Source: an uncultured Oscillospiraceae bacterium (GTDB taxonomy: Bacteria > Bacillota > Clostridia > Oscillospirales > Oscillospiraceae). From it: a DNA stretch of 36,522 bases. Location of the stretch: contig CANRLF010000018.1 of the NCBI GenBank assembly GCA_947631395.1, positions 1 through 36,522 of the forward strand, in the 5' to 3' direction. A program made the translations under genes and the position numbers. Positions 887 to 27,134 of this stretch are shown here, piece after piece (positions within the stretch are counted from its first letter, which is position 1; every line of letters starts with the position of its first letter). The notes below the pieces were generated by a model, which was not told where the DNA came from, did no database searches, and was given only the letters and a program-made list of their open reading frames with translations.

Positions 887-916
887 ATTATACATCTTAG
901 GTCAAAATATTGTCAA
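887..916 (-). promoter_or_regulatory. Consensus sigma-A promoter for the structured leader / ATPase
   Basis: On the minus strand, TTGACA (911-916) and TATAAT (887-892) are separated by 18 bases. Both boxes are perfect. Transcription would begin near 880, giving a leader of about 377 nt before the ATPase start at 503, or a separate small RNA if the hairpin at 626-713 terminates it. Confidence 0.6.
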
Positions 917-964
917 TGTTTCTTGAATAGTTTTGTGAATGCCGGAAATAATAATTTATTTGGG

Positions 965-1000
965 CAAAAAACAAGGCGAGGAATATTATTCGCCTCGTTT
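965..1000 (-). terminator. Intrinsic terminator of the transporter cluster
   Basis: The minus strand shows an 11-bp stem (990-1000 with 969-979, one mismatch) with a short AT loop. It is followed by a T-rich run at 965-970. It lies about 155 bases past the stop of the last gene of the cluster (1156). Apart from this hairpin I see no gene in the AT-rich stretch 917-1155. Confidence 0.6.
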
Positions 1001-1155
1001 GAAGCACTTTTTGCGGATATGCCTGAATTCCACACGCAAAAAAACAAAAATTATTTTTCGCTCTACACTTTTTTGGAAGAACAGGAGATGGATGTCAAAC
1101 ATGGGAGGTGTGTTCGAGGAAGAAGTATAAGCAAAAGCAAAATTTAAATTCCCCT

Positions 1156-2220
1156 TTATCGGTTATGCCACTTCTTTGCCTGTATCGCACACAGTGTCAA
1201 CGTCGCGATCATACCGGCCAGGATGATCGCGGCACTTTCTGTGCACATATTTTTACTTTCCGACAGGACTGCCTGAGTGGGCTCGTTATTTGAGAAGTCA
1301 AGCATGGAGCGAAAAATTACTCTAAATGTATTGACGTAATGTTCAACGTCAAAAATCATATTCCCGGGCAGGAGCGAGGATGGCAGGTCAATGGTATCAA
1401 GCAGCCTCGGAATACATACGCCGTCCAGCGCGGTAATGGCGAGATTTGTCAGTATAATGCCGGTGCCTCCGCAGCGCCGGGATAACACATAGGTCCCGAC
1501 CCACAAAGCTACGGGAGCAAAGAACATCACAAAAAGCGCGGCGATACGGGGAAGACTATTCAAAAACCTCTCTATGTCTGTAAGGCTGTATATCCGCAGA
1601 TCATCACGCGCCAGGGGTGTGATTCGTTCCGCAAGCTCCTTGGTGTTTGCCAGTTGCGCTCTGGCCTCGGACTCCAAAAACGGCTGGGGTTCGTCTGGGA
1701 CGGTCAGCAGGAGCGATGTGTCATTTCTGGCGGCAAGCTCAAGCCCGGAAGGCAGCGACAACACTTTCGGCAAAGGCAGAGCGGAGATCACAAGCCATGT
1801 GTCGTCGCTGCGCTCGCGCTTGTTAAGTATTTCCGCCGGCTCCCCGGCTTTTGGCGGGTGGGAGTAAAATTCGATCAGCTTTCCCTCCCACGGGGCAGAT
1901 GCCTCCACATGGGGTTGAAGCTTCAACCCCGTTATCTCGTCCACGGCCTCCGGGTCATCGTAGACCGTGTAGCTTCCGCTCCCCAGCTCCGCCACCCGTG
2001 TGCCGCTCTCCCAACCGGTGCCCTCGTATGTGTAATAGAGGTGCCAACCTGTTTCGTCCCGAAGGGCGGTCTCCAGCGGCAGAATCGCTGCTCCAAAGGA
2101 TGGCCTCTCCACTGTCACCACTCTGGCTGTCATCAGCTCCTCGATTTTGAATGAGAAAGCCGTACAGCAGACTAATATCCACGTCACAAGCCACAAGGCG
2201 AAAAGGACTTTTCGCTTCAC
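1156..2220 (-). CDS. Membrane protein of unknown function, last gene of the ABC cluster
   Basis: The protein has 354 residues when read from the GTG at 2218-2220, which has GGAG eight bases upstream. A GTG two codons earlier overlaps the permease stop but sits too close to the ribosome site. The N-terminus is a signal-anchor-like helix (about residues 5-22). A polar, probably extracellular region of about 200 residues follows. Two hydrophobic helices (about 240-265 and a segment near 275-290) come next, and a last helix ends at a basic tail (about 330-350). I recognise no family. It starts just upstream of the permease stop codon region and shares the operon with two sugar-type permeases, so it may be an accessory subunit of that transporter. 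That role is inference. Confidence 0.65.
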   Translation of the reverse strand: MKRKVLFALWLVTWILVCCTAFSFKIEELMTARVVTVERPSFGAAILPLETALRDETGWHLYYTYEGTGWESGTRVAELGSGSYTVYDDPEAVDEITGLKLQPHVEASAPWEGKLIEFYSHPPKAGEPAEILNKRERSDDTWLVISALPLPKVLSLPSGLELAARNDTSLLLTVPDEPQPFLESEARAQLANTKELAERITPLARDDLRIYSLTDIERFLNSLPRIAALFVMFFAPVALWVGTYVLSRRCGGTGIILTNLAITALDGVCIPRLLDTIDLPSSLLPGNMIFDVEHYVNTFRVIFRSMLDFSNNEPTQAVLSESKNMCTESAAIILAGMIATLTLCAIQAKKWHNR

Positions 2221-2222
2221 GT

Positions 2223-2993
2223 TCACAGCTCCTTTCCCAACGCGATTCCCTCCGTAAGCTCCCTGTTGAAGTACATAAAGAGAAAGAGCGGCGGAATCAC
2301 AGCGAGGACGCAACATACAAGCCTTACCGTAGGGTCAGCTGGCAGGGTGGAGGCCAAGGATACGCTGAGCGGCCAGCGTTTCTGATCCTTTATGAAAGCG
2401 ATTGGCTGTTCCACCATATTCCAGGCATCCAGGAACGACAGGAGGAAGGTACAGACAAGGCCGTTTTTGTTGATGGGCAGGGCAACGCGCACAATGAGCG
2501 GAAGGGTCCTGCACCCATCGACCTTTGCGGCGTCGATGATTTCGTCCGGAATGGCACGGAAGCCCTGGGCCATGATGAAAGTTCCAAGCGGGATAAATAT
2601 GGCGGGCAAAATAAGGGCACCATATGTATCCAGGAGCTTCAGCTTGTCCAAAACAATGTAATTTGGCACCAGCGTCACCTGAAGCGGGAGAATCATCAGC
2701 ACCAGGAGGAAGAAGAAAACCACATTTCTCCCCGGAAAGTTATACTTGGCAAAGCCAAAGCCCGCAAGGGAGGAAACTATGGTCTGTCCCGCGGCAACTA
2801 AGATCGTGAGACCCGCACTCAGCCAGAAGCGCAGGAGGTATTGAGGTGTCGCAAGAAACACGTCGTAGTAATATATGAATGTGGCCCCGTCGTCTGTAAG
2901 GATGCTTTTCAGGAGCACATATAAAAATGGTGCGAGACATAAGGCTATAAGAATGACGGCCACAGCGGAGCCGACAGTGAACCGCTTTTTCAC
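2223..2993 (-). CDS. ABC transporter permease, MalG-type (CUT1 sugar family)
   Basis: The protein has 256 residues with about six hydrophobic helices. It carries the cytoplasmic EAA loop that contacts the ATPase (about residues 158-185: DAAKVDGC, then LPLIVRVALP and a later N-x-x-G). Families with this loop import carbohydrates or related solutes across the cell membrane as heterodimers with a MalF-type partner. The start ATG overlaps the stop of the partner gene by four bases (ATGA), so the two are translationally coupled. No ATP-binding subunit is encoded nearby. CUT1 systems in Firmicutes often borrow a shared MsiK-like ATPase, so this is known behaviour and not a sign of decay. Confidence 0.9.
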   Translation of the reverse strand: MKKRFTVGSAVAVILIALCLAPFLYVLLKSILTDDGATFIYYYDVFLATPQYLLRFWLSAGLTILVAAGQTIVSSLAGFGFAKYNFPGRNVVFFFLLVLMILPLQVTLVPNYIVLDKLKLLDTYGALILPAIFIPLGTFIMAQGFRAIPDEIIDAAKVDGCRTLPLIVRVALPINKNGLVCTFLLSFLDAWNMVEQPIAFIKDQKRWPLSVSLASTLPADPTVRLVCCVLAVIPPLFLFMYFNRELTEGIALGKEL

Positions 2994-3856
2994 TCTCTGT
3001 ATCGCTCCTTTCTTCGGACCCAGATGAACATGACGGAGAGCACCGCCGTCACCGAGACGCTCAAAAGGACCGACGCCACCGCCAGCTTCGGATAATTCAG
3101 GTTTTCAAAGCAGTTGTTGATGAAGTGCTGGAGCATGTAGACGCTGTCGTCCGGGTGGGCTCCGCCGATGAGGAATATTTCCCGAAAGCATTTGAAGGCG
3201 TTTATGAGGGAAAAGACCGTGGCGAAAAAAACGCTGTACCACATCTGGGGTACGGTAATGTGCCAAAACTGCCTGAAGCGGCCAGCTCCGTCCAATTGTG
3301 CCGCTGCGTATTGATCCGCTGGAATTGTCATAAGCCCGGACAGCAGGAGGATGACGCTGTACCCGGTATTCTTCCAGATATAAAGCGCCATCGCCACCCA
3401 AAATGAGGCGGGAGAATGAAGCCAGTCCCGCACAGGAGCGCCAAGAGCCATGAGGCACCTGTTCAAAAGCCCGACCTTACCGAAAACCAAATTCACCACC
3501 AGCACCGCGCCAATGACGGGCATAATGTATGGGAAAAGGAGCACCGATTTCAAGAGCTTGTGTTTTTCAACCTCATTTTTCAGGAGCAACGCAATAGCGT
3601 AGGAAATGACCAGAATGAGCGGGAGACCCAGGAGCAAAAATCGCGCCGTATTCCGAAAGGCTTTCCTGAAAAGCTCATTTTGCCACATGGTCAAATAGTT
3701 TTCCGCACCCACAAAACGAGCGGAGGAACCCACGCCCTGCGTTACAGAATACCGTATGACCAGGATAAACGGCAATGCGTAAAAAATAAGGCACCCCAAA
3801 ACGACTGGCAGGACCAGCAATATTCCGTCTCTTGCGTTTTTCGCGGACAGCTTCAT
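2990..3856 (-). CDS. ABC transporter permease, MalF-type (CUT1 sugar family)
   Basis: The protein has 288 residues with a cytoplasmic N-terminus, about six transmembrane helices and an EAA loop (about residues 185-212: YAAAQLDGAGRFRQFWHITV). It is the partner of the following MalG-type permease. Only about 30 bases separate its start from the scar of the degenerate third cassette (3887-4045), which lies directly upstream. It therefore appears to be read from the same transcript as the M56 and SBP genes. The transported solute cannot be told from the sequence. Confidence 0.9.
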   Translation of the reverse strand: MKLSAKNARDGILLVLPVVLGCLIFYALPFILVIRYSVTQGVGSSARFVGAENYLTMWQNELFRKAFRNTARFLLLGLPLILVISYAIALLLKNEVEKHKLLKSVLLFPYIMPVIGAVLVVNLVFGKVGLLNRCLMALGAPVRDWLHSPASFWVAMALYIWKNTGYSVILLLSGLMTIPADQYAAAQLDGAGRFRQFWHITVPQMWYSVFFATVFSLINAFKCFREIFLIGGAHPDDSVYMLQHFINNCFENLNYPKLAVASVLLSVSVTAVLSVMFIWVRRKERYRE

Positions 3857-3886
3857 TTACGAAAGCCCCCTCTCGGAAATGCTGTA

Positions 3887-4045
3887 TTACCCCTCGGCCA
3901 TATGCCAACGGAGCTCCTCGATCAATTCGTTAACCTCACCTTGGGAGCCTGTCCCCGGCGATAAGACGCAAAAGGGCGGTCACAAGTATCATCGTCCCGC
4001 CGGACATGCTCATTTCCTCACTCCCACTCGTCAACAATACGGTGA
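3887..4045 (-). pseudogene. Scar of a third M56-SBP cassette: blaI tail, M56 head and SBP tail fused
   Basis: Three pieces of neighbouring genes are joined here. First, at about 4018-4035, come the last codons of a BlaI-type gene (IVDEWE-like, then stop). Second, at 3936-4013, comes the 5' end of an M56 gene: 25 codons beginning MSMSGGTMILVTALL, lacking 15 bases near its start that both full copies have, and ending at a TGA. Third, at 3887 to about 3938 and in another frame, come the last 16-17 codons of an SBP gene (NELIEELRWHMAEG, then stop), matching the ends of both intact SBPs. The simplest reading is a former third cassette with everything between the M56 head and the SBP tail deleted. 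Confidence 0.8.
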
Positions 4046-4071
4046 AGCACAGCAAGGAACATCGCCGAGCG

Positions 4072-5484
4072 TCACCCCTCAGCGATGTGGTATTGCAAAT
4101 CGTTGATAAGGTCCCCGGCTGCCACGTCAATGTCAAGGTCACTGGCAGTGTATGCGCGGGTTTCGCCGCCAGAATCGGACGTGCTTCGAGTCACATCATA
4201 TGTACTTTGAAGGATCGAATACTCAAATTCATACTCCGCTTTGATGGTGAAGCGCACCTCATCCGCATGAGTCCACTGCAATTCGTTGATGACCTCGCTC
4301 CCGGCTGTCTTTGGCCGGACGGGACAGCCATCAATAAAATCCATCATACCGTTGCGTTCCGTTTCCCACTGGGACTCCTCTGAAAGAAACTCACGCAGAA
4401 AGTCATACGCCGCCTGCGGATGCTCACAGCCCACGCCCACGGCACCCCAAGTCTTGACGTAGGCTATTAATTCCCCGTCCGTAGATCGCAAGGGGAAAGC
4501 CTCCGCCTTGATGCCCTTGCTCTCAGCTCCGGTAACAAGGCCGATTACCTGCTCCAAGCTCCCAAATATAAGCGGATCTTCCTCGCTCAAGGCAGACGGC
4601 GTGCCGATTGAGCCGGTATTCTGCGCTAAGACCACAAGAGACTGAAAATCGCGCATATAATCTGCCACCTCTTCCGCACTCAAAGTTACATTTTGCTTGT
4701 CATAGTCGAACAAATCGGAGAAAGCAAAGAAGGGATAGGGAAAACCTGGCCGCGCCGCGTTTTTCGCCAAGGTCTGATTTCCATTGGCAAGCAGTTCCCC
4801 GTAAAAGCCGCCAACGCTTGCTCTCATGGCATCTATATCTATTCCGGATGATGTCAGAGCGGGCCCAACGGCACAGACCTCGGGGCATGTATACCGGAGC
4901 GGCAGAATGTACCTTGCATCACCGATTTTCCCGCCGTCCATGATTGAGGATACCAAACCTTCACTGCCGAGGCTGTCGTCCGCGTCATAGTATTGGCTTA
5001 TGTCAAGAAACAGCCCATTCCGCATGGACATTGCCACATCGTGAAACACCGTATCATCAGCCGGAATACTGGTGAGGAAGTGATTGATCCCGGTTACTTG
5101 GTCGATTGGCGGCCAGTCGGTCATAATATATACGTCCGGCCCATCTCCACCCAGTATTTCCGCCCGTAGCTGACGGGTCCGCAGCTCCCGCTCCTCAGAA
5201 TCAGCGGGCAGTGACTCTATCTCAACGCTTACATCCACATGGGATTTATTATATTCCCGCGCCACCCGGCGGACCTCGTCATAAATCGAATATGTCCTGG
5301 TTCCCATACTGTCCAACGTGTGCATGCTCGGAGCGTTTATAAGCACATGAAGTACAGCGGGGCCGTCATCGGTTTCGGAGGACAGTATGTTATCAGGTTG
5401 CGGAGATACATTGGAACAGCCGCAGATAACCAGAATCAGTGCGGCGGTCAAAATCACTGCCAATATCTTTCGTGTCACCCTCAC
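4072..5484 (-). CDS. ABC substrate-binding lipoprotein, copy 1 (sugar-type SBP)
   Basis: The protein has 470 residues. A hydrophobic N-terminal signal ends in a lipobox (ICGC, lipidated Cys near residue 23), so it should be anchored outside the membrane. The body matches family 1 extracellular solute-binding proteins, with a GPDVYIMTDWP strand and the later conserved MRNGLFLDIS and ARYILPLRY segments. It starts at a GTG overlapping the stop of the upstream CxxC gene (GTGA). It is a diverged paralogue of the SBP at 6970-8430: many matched blocks and the same C-terminal HIAEG, but clearly different elsewhere, especially in the middle where ligand contacts are expected. It probably feeds the permeases at 2223-3856. 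The ligand is unknown. Confidence 0.85.
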   Translation of the reverse strand: MRVTRKILAVILTAALILVICGCSNVSPQPDNILSSETDDGPAVLHVLINAPSMHTLDSMGTRTYSIYDEVRRVAREYNKSHVDVSVEIESLPADSEERELRTRQLRAEILGGDGPDVYIMTDWPPIDQVTGINHFLTSIPADDTVFHDVAMSMRNGLFLDISQYYDADDSLGSEGLVSSIMDGGKIGDARYILPLRYTCPEVCAVGPALTSSGIDIDAMRASVGGFYGELLANGNQTLAKNAARPGFPYPFFAFSDLFDYDKQNVTLSAEEVADYMRDFQSLVVLAQNTGSIGTPSALSEEDPLIFGSLEQVIGLVTGAESKGIKAEAFPLRSTDGELIAYVKTWGAVGVGCEHPQAAYDFLREFLSEESQWETERNGMMDFIDGCPVRPKTAGSEVINELQWTHADEVRFTIKAEYEFEYSILQSTYDVTRSTSDSGGETRAYTASDLDIDVAAGDLINDLQYHIAEG

Positions 5485-5810
5485 CCTCGTTCACCCAAGC
5501 ATACTTCCATATAATAGACATTCATTTCACGCGAAAAGCCGCAATCTTCACATTCGGTAACATCAGATATACGATAAGAGTGATGCTGATGGGATTCAGT
5601 GAAATTAGGGCAAGAGGCAACATCAAAAATACCGTTGTCTCGCCGATTCTCATACGTTGTAATTGTACCGTTACAAACTGGGCATATGCCTACTCTTATG
5701 CAGGGCATCACCTCAACTTCGTTATCTGCGGCAGAGGCGGACATGACAAGCGCAGTCACTAGTACGCATAATGTCAACACCACCGCAAAAATCATCCTGA
5801 TTTTTTTCAT
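5481..5810 (-). CDS. Small secreted CxxC (zinc-ribbon-like) protein, copy 1
   Basis: The protein has 109 residues with a classical signal peptide (cleavage likely after ASA, near residue 28). The mature part has two Cys pairs, CPVC near residue 45 and CEDC near residue 90, plus a His-rich stretch (SHQHHSY). These could bind one metal ion or form disulfides. It follows the M56 gene by six bases, has GGAGG nine bases upstream of its ATG, and overlaps the next SBP start. A paralogue with the same layout is at 8508-8834. I know no named family. An extracellular partner of the sensor protease or SBP is a guess from position. Confidence 0.75.
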   Translation of the reverse strand: MKKIRMIFAVVLTLCVLVTALVMSASAADNEVEVMPCIRVGICPVCNGTITTYENRRDNGIFDVASCPNFTESHQHHSYRISDVTECEDCGFSREMNVYYMEVCLGERG

Positions 5811-5816
5811 AAGACT

Positions 5817-6908
5817 TTACCTCCAATAATATTTTGTTTCAGCGGACGAGGCCGCGGAAATCCCCACCGAATCACGGTTGAAAATTATGGCATCTTTGCG
5901 ATCGCTTGACGAGTTCCCGCGATTCTCTCCGTCGTAATCCTCACGGAGAGAGATGTTTTGAGATGTGATTTTGACCGCGCCGGGTTCCAATGGTACGTTA
6001 TTATGGGGATTCGGGCTCGACGTCGTGGTAAAAAAAGTCATTATGGCAATAGTAAGAACGGCGGAGAGAGCGATATTGAGCTTCGTGGCTCGTTTATATC
6101 CCATCACTCCCCGGACGCGCCTCTCGGTGACGTTCTTTCCGAAGCCCGTGACCAGTGGGATGCCGGTGCGCGGGGCTTTCAGGTCGATGAGCAGTCGGGC
6201 ATACTGAGCACGGCACTCAGGTCCGAACTGATCCACCACCGCGCCGTCACAGGCAAGCTCCATGTCCCGGTCAAGAAGCGCCGCCATCAGCCATACGGCG
6301 GGGTTCCACCAGTGTACGCACAAAGCAAGCACCGACAGCTTTTTAAGCACACTGTCAAAGCGCCTTATGTGGGTGAACTCATGACAAAGCACCATATCAA
6401 GGCGCTCCGCGTCCCACCCCTCGGCATCCTCGGGCAGGAGGATCACTGGACGAAGAAGTCCATATGTCAGCGGCGTGCGCAAGCCTGGAAGTGCACGTAC
6501 CGTCACCCGCCGCCGGATATGGATCGTTGACAGCCAATCCTTTATGTATTCGTTTTCCAAAGGCGTTGACACCCGAAACGCACGGATACAGCGGATATAC
6601 GACACGGCAAAGACAATGCCCGTCACCGCCATGCCCACAAGCCAGATGACGGTCCAAATCGGGATTCCCGCCGACGTTTCCTCCACAGCGACCGCGTCGG
6701 GAGTCTCGACTTTTATCGCCGTCCGCGATAGAAGCCCATAGAAGCTCACGGGTGAGGCAATTTTAAACGGTATGAGGAGTCTCAAAATAGCCGCTGTCCA
6801 CAGCGCCACATACCCCCGCCTCGGGAACCTGTCCCCGGCGATAAGACGCAAAACGGCAGTCACAAGGATCATTATTCCGCCGGATACGCTCATTTCCACA
6901 ATGCTCAT
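5817..6908 (-). CDS. M56 family (BlaR1/MecR1-like) membrane metalloprotease sensor, copy 2
   Basis: The protein has 363 residues. Hydrophobic helices lie near residues 10-25, 33-48 and 85-105. The zinc protease motif HEFTH is at 176-180 and the third-ligand motif ELACD near 217-221. A last helix (about 278-297) precedes a polar tail of about 65 residues expected outside the cell. In BlaR1, ligand binding outside activates this protease, which inactivates the BlaI repressor. The start ATG 6906-6908 aligns with copy 1. Residues 1-275 differ from copy 1 at about 25 positions, whereas the tails do not align. There is no penicillin-binding domain, so the signal is not expected to be a beta-lactam bound in BlaR1 fashion. 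It has no full repressor of its own, only a remnant just upstream. Confidence 0.9.
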   Translation of the reverse strand: MSIVEMSVSGGIMILVTAVLRLIAGDRFPRRGYVALWTAAILRLLIPFKIASPVSFYGLLSRTAIKVETPDAVAVEETSAGIPIWTVIWLVGMAVTGIVFAVSYIRCIRAFRVSTPLENEYIKDWLSTIHIRRRVTVRALPGLRTPLTYGLLRPVILLPEDAEGWDAERLDMVLCHEFTHIRRFDSVLKKLSVLALCVHWWNPAVWLMAALLDRDMELACDGAVVDQFGPECRAQYARLLIDLKAPRTGIPLVTGFGKNVTERRVRGVMGYKRATKLNIALSAVLTIAIMTFFTTTSSPNPHNNVPLEPGAVKITSQNISLREDYDGENRGNSSSDRKDAIIFNRDSVGISAASSAETKYYWR

Positions 6909-6912
6909 TTTT

Positions 6913-6941
6913 TCACTCCCATTCGTCAACAATACGGTGAA
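6913..6941 (-). pseudogene. Remnant of the blaI 3' end at a duplication junction
   Basis: About 29 bases match the last codons and stop of the intact blaI (10438 onward; RIVDEWE then TGA) almost exactly. They sit between the SBP stop (6970) and the M56 start (6908). They mark where the cassette duplication broke, inside the end of blaI. The same short remnant precedes the degenerate third copy near 4018-4045. Confidence 0.8.
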
Positions 6942-6969
6942 AAGGTGTCGGCCTGCCCGCGAGAAGATA

Positions 6970-8430
6970 CTATCCCTCCGCTATATGCCATTGAAGGCTG
7001 TCGATCAATTCCTGAGATAGGTCCTCCAGGTCCATAGCTGTGTCATTTGAAACACACAAAGCCATAAGATTTCTTCTGAAGTTATCTTCCTCTGGAAGTC
7101 CAAAGCGAATTACATCGATCTGCTCATCCATAAGCGGAATATCTGCCTCGGTCACGTCAACGGTCCGTAGAATTTGGTTTGCCCATCGTGCAATTTGACT
7201 GTTTCCCGCGGCATGGGCGGAGATTCGCTCACGGTATCCATCCCAAAGGCTCTCTACCGATCCTTCCACTCTAACCGGCCAACCGGCTGCGACACGGCCA
7301 CGGAAACCGCCATCTGGCGCGGAAGGCCGATTAAACTCCCATTGGGTGTCCTCCATGAGCAGAAGCCGTAGGAAGTCATAGGCAACCTCCGGGTATTCAC
7401 ATCCGGCCCCAACTGCCCCCCAATAGGTAACATTGGCCACCAAAGAGCCGTCCACGGAGCGGAGGGGGAACATGATAAGCTCCATATCGAGAGCCTGCGT
7501 GACGATCGCCACATCCAACGCCTCGTCCAATCCGCCAACATATAAAAACGCCTCAGAAAAACCGCTGCCTTTTTGAAATTCGACAATTCCGTCATTGAGA
7601 GGATACTGAGAAAGGCTTGCATAGATGTCCCAGCTTGAGGACATTGGATAGGTTATCCCCGCATTTGAAAGAGCTTGAATCCGTTGCAGATATTCCATGA
7701 CCTCGCCGGTGCTCAAGCTGACAGTCTGTGTTTCGTAGTCAATTATATTCGGGAATACGCACAGGGAGCTGTTGTAGTACCAAGGCCATGAGTACCGTGT
7801 CCAATCCGGGTCACCAGTGGCCGCCAGCGTATCGTAGAGTATATTGACGCCGGTTGAGATTTTTTCCACGTCAAGGCCGGCAGCTTTTAGAGCGGCTTCG
7901 GTGGTGTACACCATTGGGAAATTGTACCGCAAAGGCAATATGTACCGTGCGTTCCCAATAGCTCCGGCGTTCATCACAGCAGTAACCAAAGCCTCTTTGC
8001 CAAGACCGTCGTCGGATTCGTATAGTGTATTGATGTCATAAAACAGCCCATTGCGCATGGCCTGGGTCGCATCGGAGAAAAGGGCGTCGTTTCCGCTCCC
8101 TTGCAACAGATAAATATCCGGTCCTCCCCCCGACATGATCTCTGTGCGAAGCTCCTCCAGTCGTGCTTCTCGCTCCTCCGGGGCGGATGGAAGCATTTCC
8201 AGCTCAATGCTTATTCCGTCGTGAGCCGCTTCATATTCATCAATTAAGTACCTGACTACAAGTGACATAGGGTTTGTATCGGAAAGCCCATAAGAATCCG
8301 GATAGTCCTCTGTCAAAAGCCTAAGAGTGACAGGGCCTTCGTTTAACTTACGGGAATTGCCGCAACCGCCAATCAAGGCGAAAATAATCGTAATCAGAAT
8401 TATCATCACATATATCTTGCTAATTTTCAA
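6970..8430 (-). CDS. ABC substrate-binding lipoprotein, copy 2 (sugar-type SBP)
   Basis: The protein has 486 residues, read from a TTG at 8428-8430 with GGAGG six bases upstream. The signal peptide ends in the lipobox IGGC (Cys near residue 23). Conserved blocks shared with copy 1 include GPDIYLLQ, MRNGLFYDI, ARYILPLRY, GAVGAGCEYPEVAYDFLR and the terminal WHIAEG, but the rest is clearly diverged. A family 1 SBP delivers a solute to a membrane permease pair. The only pair nearby is at 2223-3856, so two SBPs may share one translocator. The segment between its start and the upstream CxxC gene (8431-8507) holds nothing but the ribosome site. Confidence 0.85.
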   Translation of the reverse strand: MKISKIYVMIILITIIFALIGGCGNSRKLNEGPVTLRLLTEDYPDSYGLSDTNPMSLVVRYLIDEYEAAHDGISIELEMLPSAPEEREARLEELRTEIMSGGGPDIYLLQGSGNDALFSDATQAMRNGLFYDINTLYESDDGLGKEALVTAVMNAGAIGNARYILPLRYNFPMVYTTEAALKAAGLDVEKISTGVNILYDTLAATGDPDWTRYSWPWYYNSSLCVFPNIIDYETQTVSLSTGEVMEYLQRIQALSNAGITYPMSSSWDIYASLSQYPLNDGIVEFQKGSGFSEAFLYVGGLDEALDVAIVTQALDMELIMFPLRSVDGSLVANVTYWGAVGAGCEYPEVAYDFLRLLLMEDTQWEFNRPSAPDGGFRGRVAAGWPVRVEGSVESLWDGYRERISAHAAGNSQIARWANQILRTVDVTEADIPLMDEQIDVIRFGLPEEDNFRRNLMALCVSNDTAMDLEDLSQELIDSLQWHIAEG

Positions 8431-8507
8431 CCTTATCCTCCGTCAAATGATACAAAGTGTTGAATGGCTTGCACGTTCATCGCCACCTTCAACTGAAATT
8501 TTCAGAA

Positions 8508-8834
8508 TCATTCAAAAGGACAGTGTTCGTTTCTGTAAATGAAATGCTCAACATAGCCGCAGTTGGGGCAATCGCATTTCAATACGTCCACAATAAACGA
8601 ATGCATATGGTATCCATCCGGTTTTATGTCACAAGTAACCGATAGATATACAACATATGCGTCGCTTTCAAAATCGAGTTTTCTTGCGCCTTCACCACAG
8701 TTGGGGCAGGGAATTACTGCATAAATTGGCATTATTTCGGTTTCATCCTCTACCGCATAACCAGGGATGACTAACGCAGTCAACGTCAGTACGATTGTTA
8801 AAGACCATGCAAAAAGTTTTTTGATGCTATTCAT
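8508..8834 (-). CDS. Small secreted CxxC (zinc-ribbon-like) protein, copy 2
   Basis: The protein has 108 residues with a signal peptide (about residues 1-28). Like copy 1, the mature part has an acidic start (DETEIMP), a first Cys pair CPNC, a His segment (GYHMHSF) and a second pair, CPNC, inside CDCPNCGY. ATG 8832-8834 has AGGAGG nine bases upstream. Cys spacing and order match copy 1, but other residues have diverged. Metal binding is inferred from the CxxC pairs. A separate promoter may lie at 8921-8949. Confidence 0.75.
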   Translation of the reverse strand: MNSIKKLFAWSLTIVLTLTALVIPGYAVEDETEIMPIYAVIPCPNCGEGARKLDFESDAYVVYLSVTCDIKPDGYHMHSFIVDVLKCDCPNCGYVEHFIYRNEHCPFE

Positions 8835-8920
8835 TGTTTTTTTCCTCCTATTTTTTCACGGTATGAACCGGGAAATATAAATATATTTCTATAATATTTT
8901 TATAGATTAAGTTACTGTAT

Positions 8921-8949
8921 ATAATATTTTATTGGCTAAATTGATGCAA
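8921..8949 (-). promoter_or_regulatory. Possible internal promoter for the CxxC-SBP pair
   Basis: On the minus strand, TTGCAT (8944-8949) and TATTAT (8921-8926) are 17 bases apart in a very AT-rich stretch about 90 bases before the CxxC start. No BlaI-type box is visible around it. It could let the SBP be made without the sensor genes. AT-richness makes chance matches likely. Confidence 0.35.
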
Positions 8950-8980
8950 TGCCGCATAATTTGAAAAATCCACAGAAGTT

Positions 8981-9217
8981 ATGGACAGACAGGGGGTTCT
9001 TCGGTTCCTGCGGAAACATTCCAAAAATTATACGGTGAATGTGACGATCACAAATGTCCGCGATGTTGCCATGACCGCCGATTTGCTGGCAGGCGAGGAG
9101 ACCGTCCACTGTGACAGCTTATACCTTGGTTCGGGAGGGCTCCCGTTGGCCATTAGAAAGCAAGGCAGGGAAACGCAAACGATTGGAGGGAGATTTTCGG
9201 TCTATGGAACAGGTTAA
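8981..9217 (+). pseudogene. Fragment resembling an IS5/IS1182-type DDE transposase
   Basis: This 78-codon open stretch contains NVTITNVRDVAMTADLLAGE followed by TVHCDSLYLGSG. That resembles the segment of IS5/IS1182-group transposases around the second catalytic Asp (typically DV..A..LLHGEE...F.DAGYQG). Neither the first Asp region nor the final Glu region is present, there is no ribosome site, and no inverted repeat ends were found. It lies on the strand opposite to the cassette, between the M56 copy 1 stop and the CxxC copy 2 gene. It looks like a decayed insertion, and the assignment rests on pattern memory only. Confidence 0.45.
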
Positions 9218-9242
9218 AATCATTAGTGTGATGATATGGAGA

Positions 9243-10433
9243 CTATTGTGCGGTGTTGCTCTGAGTCGCCGCGGGAATATGGCTAATAACATAGGCGACT
9301 CTTTCCTCGCCGTGTGTCGGAACAAATATGATCTTTTTATCATTATTGTGGGACAAAACATCAGACAGCTCATCAAAGGAAAGCTGCGATGCTTCACAAG
9401 ATTGGATGTCAATGATGTTGAGGACATGGCTGCCACTGTCCATATAGACGTCAGACTCTTCTGTGGACTGGTCTGGAACCGTGGTTGCAGATTTTGGATT
9501 GTTTGCGTTCTCGAGCGGGGATCCAATCGGTTTATCAAGCCTGGCTGAAGTGGCAAATGTCGCAATGACCATCATTATCAGGATGGCGGAGATGAGCGTC
9601 ATTGTTGCCGTGGCTCGTTTATATCCCATCACTCCCCGGACGCGCCTCTCAGTGACGTTCTTTCCGAAGCCCGTGACAAGTGGGATGCCGGTGCGCGAGG
9701 CTTTCAGGCTGATGAGAAGTCGGGCATACTGAGCACGGCACTCAGGTCCGAACTGATCCACCACCGCGCCGTCACAGGCAAGCTCCATGTCCCGGTCAAG
9801 AAGCGCCGCCATCAGCCATACGGCGGGGTTCCACCAGTGTACGCACAAAGCAAGCACCGACAGCTTTTTAAGCACACTGTCAAAGCGCCTTATGTGGGTG
9901 AACTCATGGCAAAGCACCATATCAAGGCGCTCCGCGTCCCACCCCTCGGCCTCCTCGGGCAGGAGGATCACCGGACGAAGAAATCCGTATGTCAGCGGCG
10001 TGCGCAAGCCCGGAAGCGCTCGTACCGTCATCCGTTGCCAATGGGAGTTCTTCGTGAGCCAATCGTCTATGTATTTGTTTTCCAAGGGCGTCGATGTCCG
10101 AAACGCGCGGATACAGCGGATATACGACACAGCAAAGGCGATGCCCATCACCGCCATGCCCGCAAGCCAGATGACGGTCCAAATCGAGATTCCCGCCGAC
10201 GTTTCTTCCACAGCGACCGCGCCAGGAGTCTCGACTTTTATCGCTGTCCGCGATAGAAGCCCATAGAAGCTCACGGGGGAGGCAGTTTTGAACGGCACGA
10301 GAAGTCTCAAAATAGCCGCTGTCCACAGCGCCACATACCCCCGCCTCGGGAGCCTGTCCCCGGCGATAAGACGCAAAAGGGCGGTCACAAGGATCATCGT
10401 CCCGCCGGACACGCTCATTTCCACAATGCTCAT
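9243..10433 (-). CDS. M56 family (BlaR1/MecR1-like) membrane metalloprotease sensor, copy 1
   Basis: The protein has 396 residues, starting at ATG 10431-10433, four bases after the blaI stop. The architecture is as in copy 2: helices near 10-25, 33-48 and 85-105, HEFTH at 176-180, ELACD near 217-221, and a last helix at about 279-298. It ends in a Ser/Asp-rich extracellular tail of about 98 residues. The tail is longer than in copy 2 and unrelated to it. The family senses an outside signal and cleaves or triggers loss of the BlaI repressor, and this copy directly follows such a repressor. The tail lacks the SxxK-type penicillin-binding domain of BlaR1, so the ligand is unknown. Confidence 0.9.
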   Translation of the reverse strand: MSIVEMSVSGGTMILVTALLRLIAGDRLPRRGYVALWTAAILRLLVPFKTASPVSFYGLLSRTAIKVETPGAVAVEETSAGISIWTVIWLAGMAVMGIAFAVSYIRCIRAFRTSTPLENKYIDDWLTKNSHWQRMTVRALPGLRTPLTYGFLRPVILLPEEAEGWDAERLDMVLCHEFTHIRRFDSVLKKLSVLALCVHWWNPAVWLMAALLDRDMELACDGAVVDQFGPECRAQYARLLISLKASRTGIPLVTGFGKNVTERRVRGVMGYKRATATMTLISAILIMMVIATFATSARLDKPIGSPLENANNPKSATTVPDQSTEESDVYMDSGSHVLNIIDIQSCEASQLSFDELSDVLSHNNDKKIIFVPTHGEERVAYVISHIPAATQSNTAQ

Positions 10434-10437
10434 TTTC

Positions 10438-10797
10438 TCACTCCCATTCGTCAACAACACGGCGAAGGCGCTCAACCTGCTCCTCAGAAAGCTCATCCCG
10501 GCCTAAAAGCGCGGCAAAAAGCTTCTCCGCTCGGCCATCGTATACCTTTTCGATCAGTTCCTCCGTCTCTGCCTTTCGTACCATGCTCTGCGTCACCAAT
10601 GCGTGGCACATGAAGTTCGGCTCACTCCTCTCAATGGCTCCTTTTTTGATACACCGCTTGATAAGCGTGTAGGTGGTATTCATCTCCCATCCGACCTTTT
10701 CCTTTAATACCTCATATATGTGCTTTGCTGTCACATCCCCCTCCTGCCAAAGTACGTTCATGACGCGCAGCTCCGCATTAGTCAGCTTCATTTCCAT
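10438..10797 (-). CDS. BlaI/MecI-type winged-helix repressor
   Basis: The protein has 119 residues. The N-terminal winged helix has the family pattern (LTNAELRVMNVLW, then AKHIYEVL and NTTYTLIKRCIKKGAI, about residues 5-63). A C-terminal helical dimerisation part ends in RLRRVVDEWE. I chose ATG 10795-10797 because GGAGG (10807-10811) is nine bases upstream; ATG at 10803 is only three bases away. Longer frames would start inside the promoter. BlaI binds DNA dyads with an ACA-nn-TGT core, and two such boxes bracket its own promoter (10813-10882). Its partner is the M56 protease gene immediately downstream. It is the only intact repressor for two proteases. Confidence 0.9.
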   Translation of the reverse strand: MEMKLTNAELRVMNVLWQEGDVTAKHIYEVLKEKVGWEMNTTYTLIKRCIKKGAIERSEPNFMCHALVTQSMVRKAETEELIEKVYDGRAEKLFAALLGRDELSEEQVERLRRVVDEWE

Positions 10798-10812
10798 ATT
10801 CATTGTCCTCCA

Positions 10813-10882
10813 ATCGACGAATGTAGTGTATAGATGTATTTTAGCGCGTTTCTGCCCATTTGTCAACACTACATTTGTCGAT
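10813..10882 (-). promoter_or_regulatory. blaI promoter bracketed by two inverted BlaI-type operators
   Basis: On the minus strand, TTGACA (10861-10866) and TAAAAT (10838-10843) are exactly 17 bases apart. A 16-base box at 10867-10882 (ATCGACAAATGTAGTG on the minus strand) lies just upstream of the -35. Its near-perfect inverted copy at 10813-10828, one difference, lies just past the transcription start. Each carries the ACA-nn-TGT-like core known for BlaI/MecI operators. This arrangement would let BlaI dimers block the promoter from both sides and repress the whole cassette. Confidence 0.8.
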
Positions 10883-10965
10883 TCTCAAAAATTTGTTACA
10901 TACCGGCAACCATAAACTGATTTTGGAGTTTGCCAAACCGTAATCAGTACATACTTTTAACAAGC

Positions 10966-11000
10966 AAAAAGGTGTGGCCAACTCCCAGCCACACCTTTTT
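10966..11000. terminator. Bidirectional terminator, perfect 13-bp stem
   Basis: The stem pairs 10966-10978 with 10988-11000 around a nine-base loop. A- and T-runs at its two ends let it work in both directions. It insulates the blaI promoter region from the genes to the right. Confidence 0.8.
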
Positions 11001-11098
11001 CATTTGTGCCGTACCGTCTTGCCCCATGGGTCATAAAGTTTCCCTATCTTACCGCGTACATGCGCCTCGGAAAAAATCCCTTTTGTTTTGCAAGTGTG

Positions 11099-11220
11099 CC
11101 GCCTCCGGCGGCGCGCGCAGCAAAACAGCAGGAAACAGCCGCGAATATGCCCGCAGGCATTTTCGCGACTGTTTCCGCACGTCCCCCCCCTTGCCGTAAA
11201 AGGCAAAGCCTTTTACGGCA
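11099..11220. repeat. Cluster of palindromic hairpins in a gene-free stretch
   Basis: The stretch 11001-11254 has no credible gene. It contains three inverted repeats. The first is a short GCCGCC/GGCGGC stem near 11099-11112. The second is a long imperfect hairpin of about 20 paired bases between 11131 and 11176 with ends GGAAACAG/CTGTTTCC. The third is a perfect 13-bp stem at 11192-11204 with 11208-11220. Together with the flanking terminators, this makes five hairpins in under 300 bases. It may be a decayed repeat element or stacked terminators. Confidence 0.6.
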
Positions 11221-11256
11221 AAAAAAATAGCGGACCAAAAGGTCCGCTATTTTTTT
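11217..11256 (-). terminator. Terminator of the zinc-ribbon gene
   Basis: A perfect 16-bp stem pairs 11221-11236 with 11241-11256 around an AAAA loop, with a T-run on the minus strand. It overlaps the stop codon of the gene ending at 11255 and is symmetric enough to act both ways. Confidence 0.85.
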
Positions 11257-11539
11257 ACTGTTGCTGCTGCTCCTTCATCTTAGCGAAGCACTCGCTGCAA
11301 TAAACGGGCCTGTCAGACTTGGGCTCGAAGGGGACCTTCGCCTCGCCGCCGCAGTTGGCGCAGACGGCGGTGAAATACTCACGGGGGCCGCGCACCGCGT
11401 TCTTGCGGGCGTCACGGCAGGCCTTGCAACGCTGGGGCTCATTCTGGAAGCCGCGCTCGGCGTAGAACTCCTGCTCACCGGCGGTAAAGACGAACTCCTT
11501 GCCGCACTCTTTGCACACTAATGTCTTGTCTTCGTACAT
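11255..11539 (-). CDS. Zinc-ribbon protein with two CxxC...CxxC modules
   Basis: The protein has 94 residues. The first module (about 5-45) has CKEC and CKAC flanking the typical FTAGEQEFYAERGFQNEPQRC block of the clostridial zinc-binding domain family (zf-Tbcl type). The second (about 57-88) has CANC and CSEC. It ends in a Gln-rich tail. Such small proteins are widespread in Clostridia and probably bind zinc, but their cellular role is not established. It lies just downstream of sigH (about 40 bases), ends in a strong terminator, and may share the sigH transcript. Confidence 0.85.
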   Translation of the reverse strand: MYEDKTLVCKECGKEFVFTAGEQEFYAERGFQNEPQRCKACRDARKNAVRGPREYFTAVCANCGGEAKVPFEPKSDRPVYCSECFAKMKEQQQQ

Positions 11540-24221: not shown

Positions 24222-25130
24222 TCAGAAAATCAAAGCGTCGTCCATCGATAACTGCGTATATTTTCTCGACAGCTCATTTTTATTGCCCGTAACCGTATAA
24301 TTGGTAAGAAGCGCCTCGACCATCGGTCTTCGGTTTTCCTCTCTGGCGCCGACGTGGTAAAAATGCTCCTTTGTAATAACACTGCACTCAGGCCATATTT
24401 TCGCAATATACTCATTGGCACGATAATCGTTGTGGTGCCATGTGGAAACCATATATTTCGCGTGCGATCCTGTCAGGGATGTGTGCAATTTAGCTTCAGC
24501 GTCCTCATCCCAGTTATCGTAATAATCCACATGGCGTCCGATATATGGCGGGTCGCAATAAATGAAGTCATTCTCGCCCGCCGCGCTTATTGATTTCTCA
24601 AATGGCTGGCACAAAAAGCTCCAATCATATTTTCGCAGCAGGTCTTCAACATACGCCACCTGATTTACTATCTTTGTAATATACGCCTTTGAAAAGCGAA
24701 GCGGTTTATGCCCATACGGAACATTAAACTCGTAATTCTTATTAAACCTTATCATCCCATTAAAACACGATCTGTTTAAAAAGAGAAAATCAAGCGGATC
24801 ATGCTCCCTGTTGAATCTGTCGCGTACATAATAATAAAACTTTTCATCTCCCTCCTCCAGATGCCTGCCTTCCCTCTCAAGGAAGGCCCTAACGAGATAG
24901 TGAGTTATCCTCCCCTCCTTGATTTGGTTGTAAAAGTTAATAATGTGGGGGTTTATATCAGAAAACACTGCCCGTCGGGGTTCAATATTAAACCCCACAA
25001 CTCCCGAGCCCATAAAGGGCTCACGCCAGACAGTATCGGGATCCAAATTGACGCATTCCCTTATCAGTGGAACTAATTTTGTCTTAATTCCTTGTATTTT
25101 TATTGGCGGAACATACACAGGCTCATTCAT
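24222..25130 (-). CDS. EcoRV-type N6-adenine DNA methyltransferase (D12/Dam class)
   Basis: The protein has 302 residues. It begins VYVPPIKIQGIKTKLVPLI, a close match to my memory of M.EcoRV. Motif I (S-adenosylmethionine binding) is EPFMGSGVVGFN (about 38-49), the catalytic DPPY is in YCDPPYIGRHVDYY (about 189-202), and the FLFLNRSCFNGMIRFN block is typical of the D12 class. It should methylate adenine in the site of its partner nuclease, by homology GATATC. It overlaps the nuclease stop by eight bases. The region is much richer in A and T than its flanks, which fits horizontal arrival. Confidence 0.88.
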   Translation of the reverse strand: MNEPVYVPPIKIQGIKTKLVPLIRECVNLDPDTVWREPFMGSGVVGFNIEPRRAVFSDINPHIINFYNQIKEGRITHYLVRAFLEREGRHLEEGDEKFYYYVRDRFNREHDPLDFLFLNRSCFNGMIRFNKNYEFNVPYGHKPLRFSKAYITKIVNQVAYVEDLLRKYDWSFLCQPFEKSISAAGENDFIYCDPPYIGRHVDYYDNWDEDAEAKLHTSLTGSHAKYMVSTWHHNDYRANEYIAKIWPECSVITKEHFYHVGAREENRRPMVEALLTNYTVTGNKNELSRKYTQLSMDDALIF

Positions 25131-25954
25131 ATTTTTTCCTCTTTGGTGCTTTGGGGTTATTTAGACTTTGTGGTAACCCGCGATAATCAAGGTATTCTGA
25201 AAATGATGTAATCGTCTTGCTTTTATCACCGGGGCGGTACATTATTTTTCCGTAATTCATCCAGTACTCGTCAAATAATCTTTCACCGGCTTTGGAAAAG
25301 ACTCCGTTTCCACTTAAAATTTTGTATACTCCCAATATTAGCGGTATTTCCGCTTCCACCCTTATCACTTGCTATTTTCCACTTTTCCTCAACAAAAAAC
25401 AAGAAGTTTCGTATCACCGAGGGTATAGCTTCAATTTCATCGACGGGATAAACTTTAAGCTCTTCATTTTTATCAAGCTCTGCCCGTGAATATATGATAC
25501 CAAGGCAAAAATGCCCGCTGTAATCATCATAAGGATATTGTACATTCTTTTTACTCTTTCTGTCGATGAAATACTCGCCGTGTGATCCTAAGGTAAATCC
25601 GTTGCAAAAGCCCGGATATTCCTCGTCTCTATATGTAGTCTTCAAATCAACAGCAAACTTGACAGCAGGGTCTCTATTTGAAATAAATGTCAAATCCGGG
25701 TACCAGTTTTGATATGTAGCGAGCTCTATTCTGTATCCGATCCTATCAGCAAATGTCAAAAAATGAGGAAACAGATGCAGTTCCAATATTTTGGACACAA
25801 CCTTTGTATCAGTGGAAATCGTATAAATATTTTTGAAAATATCAATGAAGCCTCGAATAGTCCATTCGTCGTCACGAGAGATTACGGAGGACAGGGTACT
25901 TGCAAATTCCTTGAGTTGTATAGCAAACTCATTTTTGGCCGCTTCGTTTTCCAT
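25123..25954 (-). pseudogene. EcoRV-like type II restriction endonuclease, frameshifted near the C-terminus
   Basis: It starts at ATG 25952-25954 (MENEAAKNEF) with a weak GGG site. The first frame runs to about 25330 and stops at 25283. The rest of the family sequence continues in the next frame to the stop at 25123. EcoRV-like features are NWYPDLTF with the VDLKTTY pair (the PD...DxK catalytic residues), NVQYPYDDYSGHFCLGIIYSR, and EEKWKIASDKGGSGNTANIG ending the first part. The second part has LSGNGVFSKAG and DEYWMNYG, then SEYLDYRG. Removing one base in the AAAATTTT tract near 25313-25322 would join the frames. Either the enzyme is inactivated or the base is a sequence error. The catalytic residues precede the break. 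Confidence 0.85.
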
Positions 25955-26003
25955 GAAATCACCCTTTTTCAGTATATCATAATGAGAAAAAAAATCAATA
26001 TTG

Positions 26004-26041
26004 TAATAAAAAAGCAAAAGGGAGAAGCTTCTCCCTTTTGC
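26004..26041 (-). terminator. Terminator of ilvE
   Basis: A perfect 28-base palindrome (26014-26041) is followed on the minus strand by a T-run (26004-26013), 23 bases past the ilvE stop. Confidence 0.88.
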
Positions 26042-26063
26042 GGTATGTCGATTAAATTTTCTC

Positions 26064-27134
26064 TCAGTCGCAAACCTTCTGGGTCCAGCCCCTGACATCC
26101 GGTCTGGTTCCCCACTGTATGCCTGTGAGCTCGTCGTAGAACCTCTGTGTGAGCTCGCCGATGCCGCCGTCGCCGATGGACAGGTCCTTGCCCTCATAAT
26201 AGATATGTCCCACGGGGGATACCACGGCCGCGGTGCCGGTGCCCCACATCTCCTCCATGTGACCGTTCCCGGCGGTCTCGATGACCTCGTCGATGGAGAT
26301 GAGTCGCTCCTCCACCTCATAGCCCCAGTCCCGGGCCACCTCGAGGATGGACTTGCGTGTGATGCCGGGAAGGACGGAGCCCTGGAGCTTCGGGGTGATG
26401 ACCTTGCCGTCTATCTTGAACATGATGTTCATGGAGCCCACCTCTTCGATATACTTGCGGTGGACGCCGTCAAGCCAGAGGACCTGGGAATATCCCAGCT
26501 TCTCGGCCCGCTCGCCGGCGCGGATGGATGCGGCGTAGTTGCCGCCGCACTTTGTAAAGCCCGTGCCGCCGCGCACCGCCCTGACGTCCTCCTCCTCGAT
26601 GGCTATATGCACGGGGTTAAGCCCCTCGGGATAGTAGTTGCCGGAGGGTGAGAGGATCACGCAGAATATATAGGTCTTGCTGGCGTGTACGCCCACGGTG
26701 CAGTCCGTGGCGATGATGAAGGGCCTTATGTAGAGGCTCGCCCCCTTCTGATCGGGCACCCAGTCACGCTCTAAGGCAACAAGCTGCTTCACCGCGTCCA
26801 CGCAGAAATCCACGTCTATCTCCGGGATGCTCATACGTACAGCGGAGTTATTCATGCGCTTGAAATTCTCCTCGGGCCTGAAAAGCCAGATGGAGCCGTC
26901 TGCGCGGCGGTAGGCCTTTAAGCCCTCGAAAATCTCCTGGGCGTAGTGGAAAACCATGCAGGAGGGATCAAGGCTGAAGGGGCCGTAGGGGACGATGCGG
27001 GGATCGTGCCAGCCCTCGCCCTCGGTATAGTTCATCAGGAACATGTGGTCGGAGAAGAATCTGCCAAAGGGCAACGGGTCAAGATGTGGCTTCTCCTTCG
27101 GGGCCTTTGTTAGCTCTACTTTGATTTTTCCCAT
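26064..27134 (-). CDS. ilvE: Branched-chain amino acid aminotransferase
   Basis: The protein has 356 residues of the class IV pyridoxal-phosphate aminotransferase fold. It interconverts leucine, isoleucine and valine with their keto acids. Family segments seen are HYAQEIFEGLKAYR (about 63-76), LYIRPFIIATD, the lysine block GGTGFTKCGGNYAAS (about 190-204, the Lys binds the cofactor), EVGSMNIMF and the late EMWGTGTAAVVSPVG (about 295-309). It is monocistronic, with its own promoter and a strong terminator. Confidence 0.95.
   Translation of the reverse strand: MGKIKVELTKAPKEKPHLDPLPFGRFFSDHMFLMNYTEGEGWHDPRIVPYGPFSLDPSCMVFHYAQEIFEGLKAYRRADGSIWLFRPEENFKRMNNSAVRMSIPEIDVDFCVDAVKQLVALERDWVPDQKGASLYIRPFIIATDCTVGVHASKTYIFCVILSPSGNYYPEGLNPVHIAIEEEDVRAVRGGTGFTKCGGNYAASIRAGERAEKLGYSQVLWLDGVHRKYIEEVGSMNIMFKIDGKVITPKLQGSVLPGITRKSILEVARDWGYEVEERLISIDEVIETAGNGHMEEMWGTGTAAVVSPVGHIYYEGKDLSIGDGGIGELTQRFYDELTGIQWGTRPDVRGWTQKVCD

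Follow-up and report, generated by a model that had tools for sequence, protein, structure and literature searches.

What is a BlaI-type repressor with two M56 proteases doing in an operon that otherwise encodes parts of a solute importer? BlaR1-type receptors are known mainly as beta-lactam sensors. The operon in question lies on the minus strand of a contig from an uncultured Oscillospiraceae bacterium (CANRLF010000018.1, assembly GCA_947631395.1), the whole of which, 36,522 nucleotides (nt), is called the window here. It reads BlaI, M56_2, CxxC2, SBP2, M56_1, CxxC1, SBP1, the remnant (scar) of a third cassette, permeases 1 and 2, and a membrane protein, where SBP stands for solute-binding protein and CxxC for a small Cys/His-rich protein. 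A preliminary description, made from the sequence alone, had named the genes from BlaI to the two permeases in this order and ended the operon at 2223; all of them are present, as judged by Pfam (the CxxC proteins match no family over the cut-off), and the operon extends beyond that limit to the conserved membrane protein. The central idea of that description, a coupling of protease and SBP, holds better than the three-gene unit in which it was framed. We regard the operon as a real, partly conserved and functionally plausible variant of BlaR1/BlaI signalling, and lean slightly towards a reading in which the SBP would form the ligand sensor of a BlaR1-type receptor and the protease of that receptor would remove BlaI and turn on the importer.

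The predicted repressor switch

Both window M56 proteins retain intact zinc-protease motifs, HExxH and ExxxD. These are HEFTH and ELACD, the counterparts of H201EXXH and E242XXXD in BlaR1, whose outside sensor is described as signalling across the membrane to a cytosol-facing HEXXH protease that cleaves BlaI (PMC9834060). A BlaI-type repressor adjoining an M56 gene, these motifs and operator dyads at the promoter are shared with the BlaR1/BlaI and MecR1/MecI systems of S. aureus and B. licheniformis. Unlike in those systems, neither a penicillin-binding sensor domain nor a beta-lactamase or penicillin-binding protein (PBP) was found in the window operon: Pfam gives M56 alone in both proteases, whose blaR1_generic scores (83.3 and 86.7 bits) fall below the cut-off of 400, and no beta-lactamase or resistant PBP domain was detected by Pfam and NCBIfam among the ten operon proteins, to which this test was confined. 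The window M56 tails are short, and the SBPs are encoded behind the protease or, in relatives, fused to it.

The top match of a promoter scan (11/12), TTGACA (10866-10861) and TAAAAT (10843-10838) separated by a 17-nt spacer, lies ahead of the operon and is flanked by two 18-nt inverted arms that form the predicted operator (10866-10883, AATCGACAAATGTAGTGT; 10812-10829, ACACTACATTCGTCGATT). In the closest relative found, L020, an Oscillospiraceae metagenome contig with the isolate name Lapin and perhaps of rabbit origin, 25 nt across the first arm and the -35 element are identical to the window and the second arm differs at two bases; farther upstream of the arms there is no clear similarity. 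A 15-nt arm pattern, with up to two mismatches, occurs at two places in the 2.57-Mb genome, both exact and both at the operon promoter. The reversed control likewise has two matches in the genome; in the window, three matches are found at up to three mismatches, compared with an average of 1.03 in shuffles, 8 of 100 of which reach three. The case for a specific operator therefore comes from the exactness, inverted orientation and adjacency of the two sites, and from their conservation. The scan of 900-11300 on both strands gave 21 promoter-like and 17 terminator-like matches (10.9 and 10.4 in shuffles), and several weaker promoter-like (9/12) and terminator-like matches, on the minus strand, fall inside the operon. 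A promoter with BlaI-type operator arms ahead of the operon is supported, in keeping with the BlaI control originally proposed. The window repressor is 92% identical to that of L020, with a ratio of nonsynonymous to synonymous substitution (dN/dS) of 0.06, and very probably represses the operon.

In the mechanism that we propose, BlaI would sit on the two operator arms around the promoter and repress the operon, blaI itself included. Each short-tailed M56 protein would partner the SBP encoded behind it, with the SBP, rather than a penicillin-binding domain, as the extracellular sensor; the ligand-loaded SBP would engage M56 itself or the M56 tail, the inward-facing zinc site would then cleave or inactivate BlaI, and, with BlaI gone, the SBPs and permeases would be made. 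We infer each of these steps, and the ligand itself; what the sequences show directly is the order of the genes, the intact metal motifs, the conserved operator, the loss of cassettes, the homogenized M56 cores and the recurrent M56::SBP fusion. Removal of BlaI by M56 is likely, whereas the odds that an SBP is the trigger of the switch appear little better than even. With two M56-SBP pairs and one BlaI, either ligand would induce, an OR gate that follows only if both pairs act on the one BlaI.

One BlaI with two BlaR1-type proteins is not new in itself, because the BlaI_0696 operon of C. thermocellum combines one BlaI, two BlaR1 genes and paired operator sites (PMC8457756). The authors of that study infer a beta-lactam response, and its passages on the operon mention no SBP or permease. 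BlaI/M56 use outside antibiotic resistance is represented by PetR/PetP of Synechocystis, a BlaI-type regulator and a BlaR1-family protease presented in a commentary as a copper switch (PMC7896320); it differs in being copper-dependent and in its targets, plastocyanin and cytochrome c6, and SBPs or importers go unmentioned in the parts of the commentary that treat it. In the relevant part of a review, BlaR1 and MecR1 serve as the M56 examples (PMC7593790). Among the top-ranked matches in the open-access PMC literature, no description of an SBP-coupled M56 receptor, or of nutrient sensing by such a pairing, was found. Within that scope, the original assertion that no system of this form is known agrees with these results for the SBP coupling, though not for the pairing of one repressor with two proteases.

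M56 proteases joined to solute-binding proteins

The chief reason for pairing the separate M56 and SBP genes of the window is that the two are fused in other genomes. The unfused form was seen in two genomes, with operator and promoter conserved: the window and L020, where the order is BlaI, M56a, an SBP 76% identical to SBP2, M56b, an SBP tail, another SBP, the permeases and the membrane protein that we label DUF386. L036, a contig titled Acutalibacter sp., carries BlaI, an M56::SBP protein of 793 amino acids (aa), a lipoprotein-like gene, two more SBPs and permeases; the protease part is recognized by Pfam (8.5e-42), and the SBP part by blastp (1e-10 to SBP1) and by our own SBP profile hidden Markov model (HMM; 4e-67), which was trained without the fusion proteins. 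L065 has BlaI, an 822-aa fusion and two permeases (Pfam M56 1e-41, SBP_bac_1 1.4e-8, SBP_bac_8 2.1e-8); L112, of the same genus, BlaI, a permease, an 803-aa fusion and a permease (M56 4.3e-42, SBP_bac_8 1.7e-12); and L144, BlaI, a 749-aa fusion, an SBP and permeases (M56 2e-51, SBP_bac_8 9.5e-8). The fusion is the sole SBP seen in the fetched DNA of L065 and L112. A weaker fifth fusion, L180, combines BlaI with a 1041-aa M56 protein that has an SBP match (own HMM, 5e-19). L145 was not counted (own SBP HMM 1e-5, no Pfam SBP). That M56 and SBP belong together, as first proposed, is borne out by the recurrence of the order in L020 and by the four fusions that accompany BlaI and related permeases.

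In a 76-row M56 tree, the copies of the window and of L020 group together (100/100) within a larger clade of 14 rows (100/98) that also holds unlinked M56s, and the fusions fall at four other places (L036; L065 with L112; L144; L180), so that SBP-linked M56s occupy five separate places. The SBP-linked label requires five changes, forced by the starred branches (5-95% bootstrap range 5-5), and a quick tree agrees; such counting does not separate gains from losses. The linkage of M56 to SBP is rare but recurrent.

The joint presence of BlaI, M56, SBP and permeases in the window, L020, L036, L065, L112 and L144 is also what would be expected if the importer itself (the permeases, with or without the conserved membrane protein) were the sensor, its activity being read by M56 and the SBP acting via the transporter only. 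The fusion gene of L112, which sits between the two permease genes, fits that scheme as well. We consider it improbable: all five fusions join M56 to an SBP and none to a permease, and no permease was seen on the short, 5.9-kb contig of L180.

In another explanation, an ordinary autoregulated BlaI/M56 switch happens to drive the importer. Envelope stress or some other signal would be sensed by the tail or membrane part of M56, the SBPs would have a role in transport alone, and the fusions would be a convenience or polyproteins cut by signal peptidase II. BlaI-M56 pairs are common: BlaI is in the fetched DNA of 56 of 60 sampled M56 loci of the order, hand-picked as roughly every second match outside the window's own genome among the matches listed (the source was ordered by match strength, so weak M56s are under-represented), and that genome has 11 M56 genes at 10 loci. 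The unlinked M56s with which the window copies group include some of the same genus. A lipobox-like Cys follows the last membrane helix in four of the five fusions (judged by eye) and in 21 of 59 other M56 open reading frames (ORFs; by pattern), and the sensor parts of such M56 proteins may be lipidated or released. Weighed against fusion to an importer SBP of the same class in several M56 lineages, and retention of M56 cores beside divergent SBPs in two genomes, this explanation seems possible and rather unlikely.

Several observations nevertheless count against the SBP as sensor. The lipobox-like Cys means that the SBP of a fusion could be cut off and act in transport only, and Pfam gives no SBP domain in the L036 fusion and just a sub-threshold one in L180. 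Only two of the 60 sampled loci, L144 and L180, both fused, show SBP linkage, with no separate SBP of this class (E <1e-9) besides that of L144; none of another 20 M56 loci from the class had an SBP in an HMM scan that took in 1.5-kb flanks. The nine other M56 loci of the genome all have BlaI, and none has these SBPs or permeases in the fetched DNA. SBP2 was found in none of 33 other same-genus genomes. A permease-1 alignment scan of genome contigs yielded 26 loci, of which 19 at 55-87% identity were retained and seven from Streptococcus, at 23-27%, were dropped; BlaI and M56 accompany two of the 19 (L020 and L036), and neither was seen in the fetched DNA of the other 17, some of which have little upstream DNA. 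The transporter therefore does not need the protease switch, and the basic family is a multi-SBP importer with the switch in some members only.

The linkage counts cover this SBP class, matches of the own HMM with E above 1e-9 having been dropped; there was no systematic search of M56 neighbourhoods for other classes of binding protein. Most weak matches span just the first ~50 residues (lipoprotein signal peptides), and some run further. Pfam on six of them identified a Peripla_BP_6 protein (L176, 715-1992) and an SBP_bac_5 binding protein (L140, 11183-12757), both on the opposite strand some 3.4-3.7 kb from the M56 gene; that of L163 is an endonuclease, and those of L157, L186 and L150 have no SBP family. 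The whole L065 fusion, as query against 391 genomes of the class, matched in 20, the source of the 20 loci scanned with 1.5-kb flanks, and the matches were to its M56 portion (query end 372-393, once 444).

With eleven M56 proteases in this genome, the recurrent M56::SBP fusion offers a testable handle on their signals. If the SBP is indeed the sensor, the inducer of the BlaI switch in the SBP-linked subset would be the SBP ligand, which ligand screening of soluble SBPs could identify; binding proteins would then be able to gate regulated proteolysis of a repressor, which would lend itself to modular biosensor design.

Cassette repeats and M56 cores

The two M56 genes of the window share 300-nt blocks, spaced 3525 apart, with identities of 98% and 91%, a repeat far beyond chance that confirms the tandem duplication described earlier. 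Ahead of each copy lie the last BlaI codons and a ribosome-binding site, and a third copy of the M56 start region is present inside the scar. Near-identity is confined to the M56 core, which in M56_2 reaches to about 9560 with a variable tail beyond; SBP1 and SBP2 are 37% identical, and CxxC1 and CxxC2 32%. The third scar, too, is real: its three frames read the BlaI tail LHRIVDEWE and a stop, the M56 start MSMSGGTMILVTALLRLIAGDRLPR and a stop, and the SBP tail ELIEELRWHMAEG and a stop. The SBP end of the scar and the following spacer can be aligned to the corresponding stretch of L020, from the end of its last SBP through the spacer that leads to permease 1; therefore, the window lost a cassette whose SBP L020 keeps, as the suggested loss of cassettes would have it. 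A different SBP is cut down to its tail in L020, and the simplest ancestor would have had three M56-SBP cassettes.

Over 900 alignment columns of DNA, identity between the M56 copies is 90.1% in the window and 95.3% in L020, compared with 77-78% for all four cross pairs. Synonymous distances are 0.17 and 0.10 within the genomes and 0.62-0.65 between them (three cross pairs computed), the latter alongside 0.61 for permease 1, 0.73 for SBP2 and 0.80 for BlaI. The SBPs behave in the opposite manner: the single orthologous pair is 76% identical and the remaining full-length pairs 34-37%. Within-genome identity declines at the M56 tail, the first-cassette tails of the two genomes are alike, and the first-cassette tail and SBP match better across the genomes than between copies inside one genome. 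GC content is 0.57-0.58 in the M56 cores, 0.47-0.49 in the tails and 0.41-0.44 in the CxxC stretches. The M56 cores are homogenized within each genome while the SBPs remain divergent, a pattern that both gene conversion of the core and its repeated duplication fit. We propose that with a core kept alike by recombination, and tail, CxxC and SBP free to vary, the sensed solute can change while the switch stays unchanged.

The scar, together with the second M56 tail of L020, which reads out of frame past the last helix (judged by eye) and is followed by an SBP reduced to its tail, might be taken to indicate a decaying array, in which the M56 repeats would be leftovers of unequal crossing-over and only the first copy would have a function. 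This is very improbable, given that both window M56 genes are open, with the core under purifying selection (dN/dS 0.36 between the two cores), and that both window SBPs are full length. Nor is duplication of M56 peculiar to the window, as tandem M56 genes occur in other genomes, in L188 (5402-9935, three copies) and L145 (6027-11180, two copies).

CxxC proteins, the importer and other features

CxxC1 and CxxC2 are probably small secreted proteins. When 12,002 ORFs of 194 loci were scanned with an HMM trained on four CxxC proteins (two from the window, L037 and L031), seven distinct genes emerged, not counting overlapping copies of the two in the window: the four, L038 (3.8e-8), L034 (2.1e-5; a short ORF without the second half) and L027 (1.2e-3). 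All seven stand directly ahead of an SBP gene in the same orientation, with gaps of -3 to 202 bases, an adjacency partly favoured by choice because the loci were mostly gathered around these SBPs. Weak matches in L192 (9.4e-4) and L035 (0.017) are not followed by an SBP and seem to reflect signal peptides; when 98 whole genomes were searched, the window's two genes and the marginal L192 were the only matches. About five to seven Cys and at least one His recur in a pattern common to the full-length proteins, an indication of possible metal binding.

The M56-CxxC-SBP triad, put forward earlier as a unit, is not conserved as such, because no CxxC gene was found in L020 and because, in the fetched DNA, CxxC precedes an SBP without M56 in L027, L031, L034, L037 (where little upstream DNA is available) and L038. 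M56-SBP and CxxC-SBP are separate associations. Between M56_2 and CxxC2 lies an AT-rich spacer, in contrast to the 55 bases that separate M56a of L020 from its SBP. It is doubtful, if conceivable, that the CxxC protein is itself the signal, with the protein, a fragment or a metal complex bound by the SBP encoded behind it, which would trigger M56 to remove BlaI; that would make an autocrine or social signalling circuit of import parts, with exchangeable signal-receptor cassettes. Co-divergence of CxxC and SBP was not seen (Mantel r 0.11, p 0.36, 7 pairs, one CxxC truncated).

SBPs of the SBP_bac_1/8 class and two MalF/MalG-type permeases liken the operon to ABC importers of the class that we take to be CUT1; it differs from them in its several SBPs, the BlaI/M56 control, the extra membrane protein and the lack of an ATPase gene. 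The best NCBIfam matches of the permeases are UgpA/UgpE, under the equivalog cut-offs, BPD_transp_1 being over cut-off in both. Pfam found no MalK-type ATPase among the ten operon proteins, and five OB_MalK matches elsewhere in the genome could serve the importer. The DUF386-labelled protein has no Pfam or NCBIfam match up to E 0.1 and a structure model with a predicted local distance difference test score (pLDDT) of 87.8; it is present in 18 of the 19 permease relatives, and the contig of the 19th stops inside permease 2. The nearest solved structure to the window SBPs is CbpC of C. thermocellum, which is reported to have bound none of the carbohydrates tested, an earlier study being said there to report binding (PMC9601137). 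The term sugar-type, applied to the SBPs at first, is thus apt for the fold class and not for the ligand.

In 16 of the 19 relatives the fetched DNA contains SBPs of the same class, and none was seen in that of L021, L023 and L030; the DNA of L021 and L030 begins almost at the permease, and the SBP of L027 lies downstream. Several relatives have SBP arrays, such as the five SBPs of L022. Tandem sets of at least four divergent SBPs ahead of one permease pair, with no M56 seen, occur in L022, L024 and L028, with SBP fragments in L024 and L028. More distant operons of the permease class (L107, L109, L120, L124) encode SBPs of 700-870 aa that carry a long extension at the N terminus. At 1e-80, a search of 394 genomes of the order found permease 1 in 10, the window's own included, some of which apparently repeat the 26-locus set.

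Table 1. Features of the operon in window coordinates; the likely starts of BlaI (10803), M56_2 (10433) and M56_1 (6908) were read from the sequence.
Feature	Coordinates	Strand	Evidence
Operon promoter with two operator arms (predicted)	10812..10883	-	Inverted repeat I1; promoter scan; conservation in L020
BlaI-type repressor, 121 aa	10438..10803	-	Penicillinase_R 8.6e-23 (Pfam)
M56 protease 2 (M56_2)	9243..10433	-	Peptidase_M56 1.7e-44; HEFTH and ELACD
AT-rich spacer, M56_2 to CxxC2	8835..9242	-	GC 0.41; blastn against other fetched loci finds only overlapping copies of the same stretch
CxxC2, Cys/His-rich, 108 aa	8508..8834	-	Hydrophobic start; CPxC...C...HxH...CxxCG...C; directly upstream of SBP2
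SBP2, lipoprotein-like solute-binding protein	6970..8430	-	SBP_bac_1 or SBP_bac_8 over curated cut-off
Copy of BlaI 3' end with ribosome-binding site, ahead of M56_1	6901..6941	-	Repeat D4; read from sequence
M56 protease 1 (M56_1)	5817..6908	-	Peptidase_M56 2.3e-45; HEFTH and ELACD
CxxC1, Cys/His-rich, 109 aa	5481..5810	-	Overlaps SBP1 start
SBP1, lipoprotein-like solute-binding protein	4072..5484	-	SBP_bac_1 1.7e-7, over cut-off
Scar of third cassette: BlaI tail, first 25 M56 codons, last SBP codons	3887..4046	-	Repeat and three-frame reading
ABC permease 1, MalF/UgpA type	2990..3856	-	BPD_transp_1 5.8e-13; 55-87% identical in 19 other loci
ABC permease 2, MalG/UgpE type	2223..2993	-	BPD_transp_1 6.6e-13
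Conserved membrane protein "DUF386" (label of this analysis)	1156..2220	-	After the permeases in 18/19 relatives

Elsewhere in the window, also on the minus strand, a D12-class adenine methyltransferase adjoins an EcoRV-type restriction endonuclease (24222-25130 and 25283-26131; Pfam 4.7e-47 and 2.6e-98).

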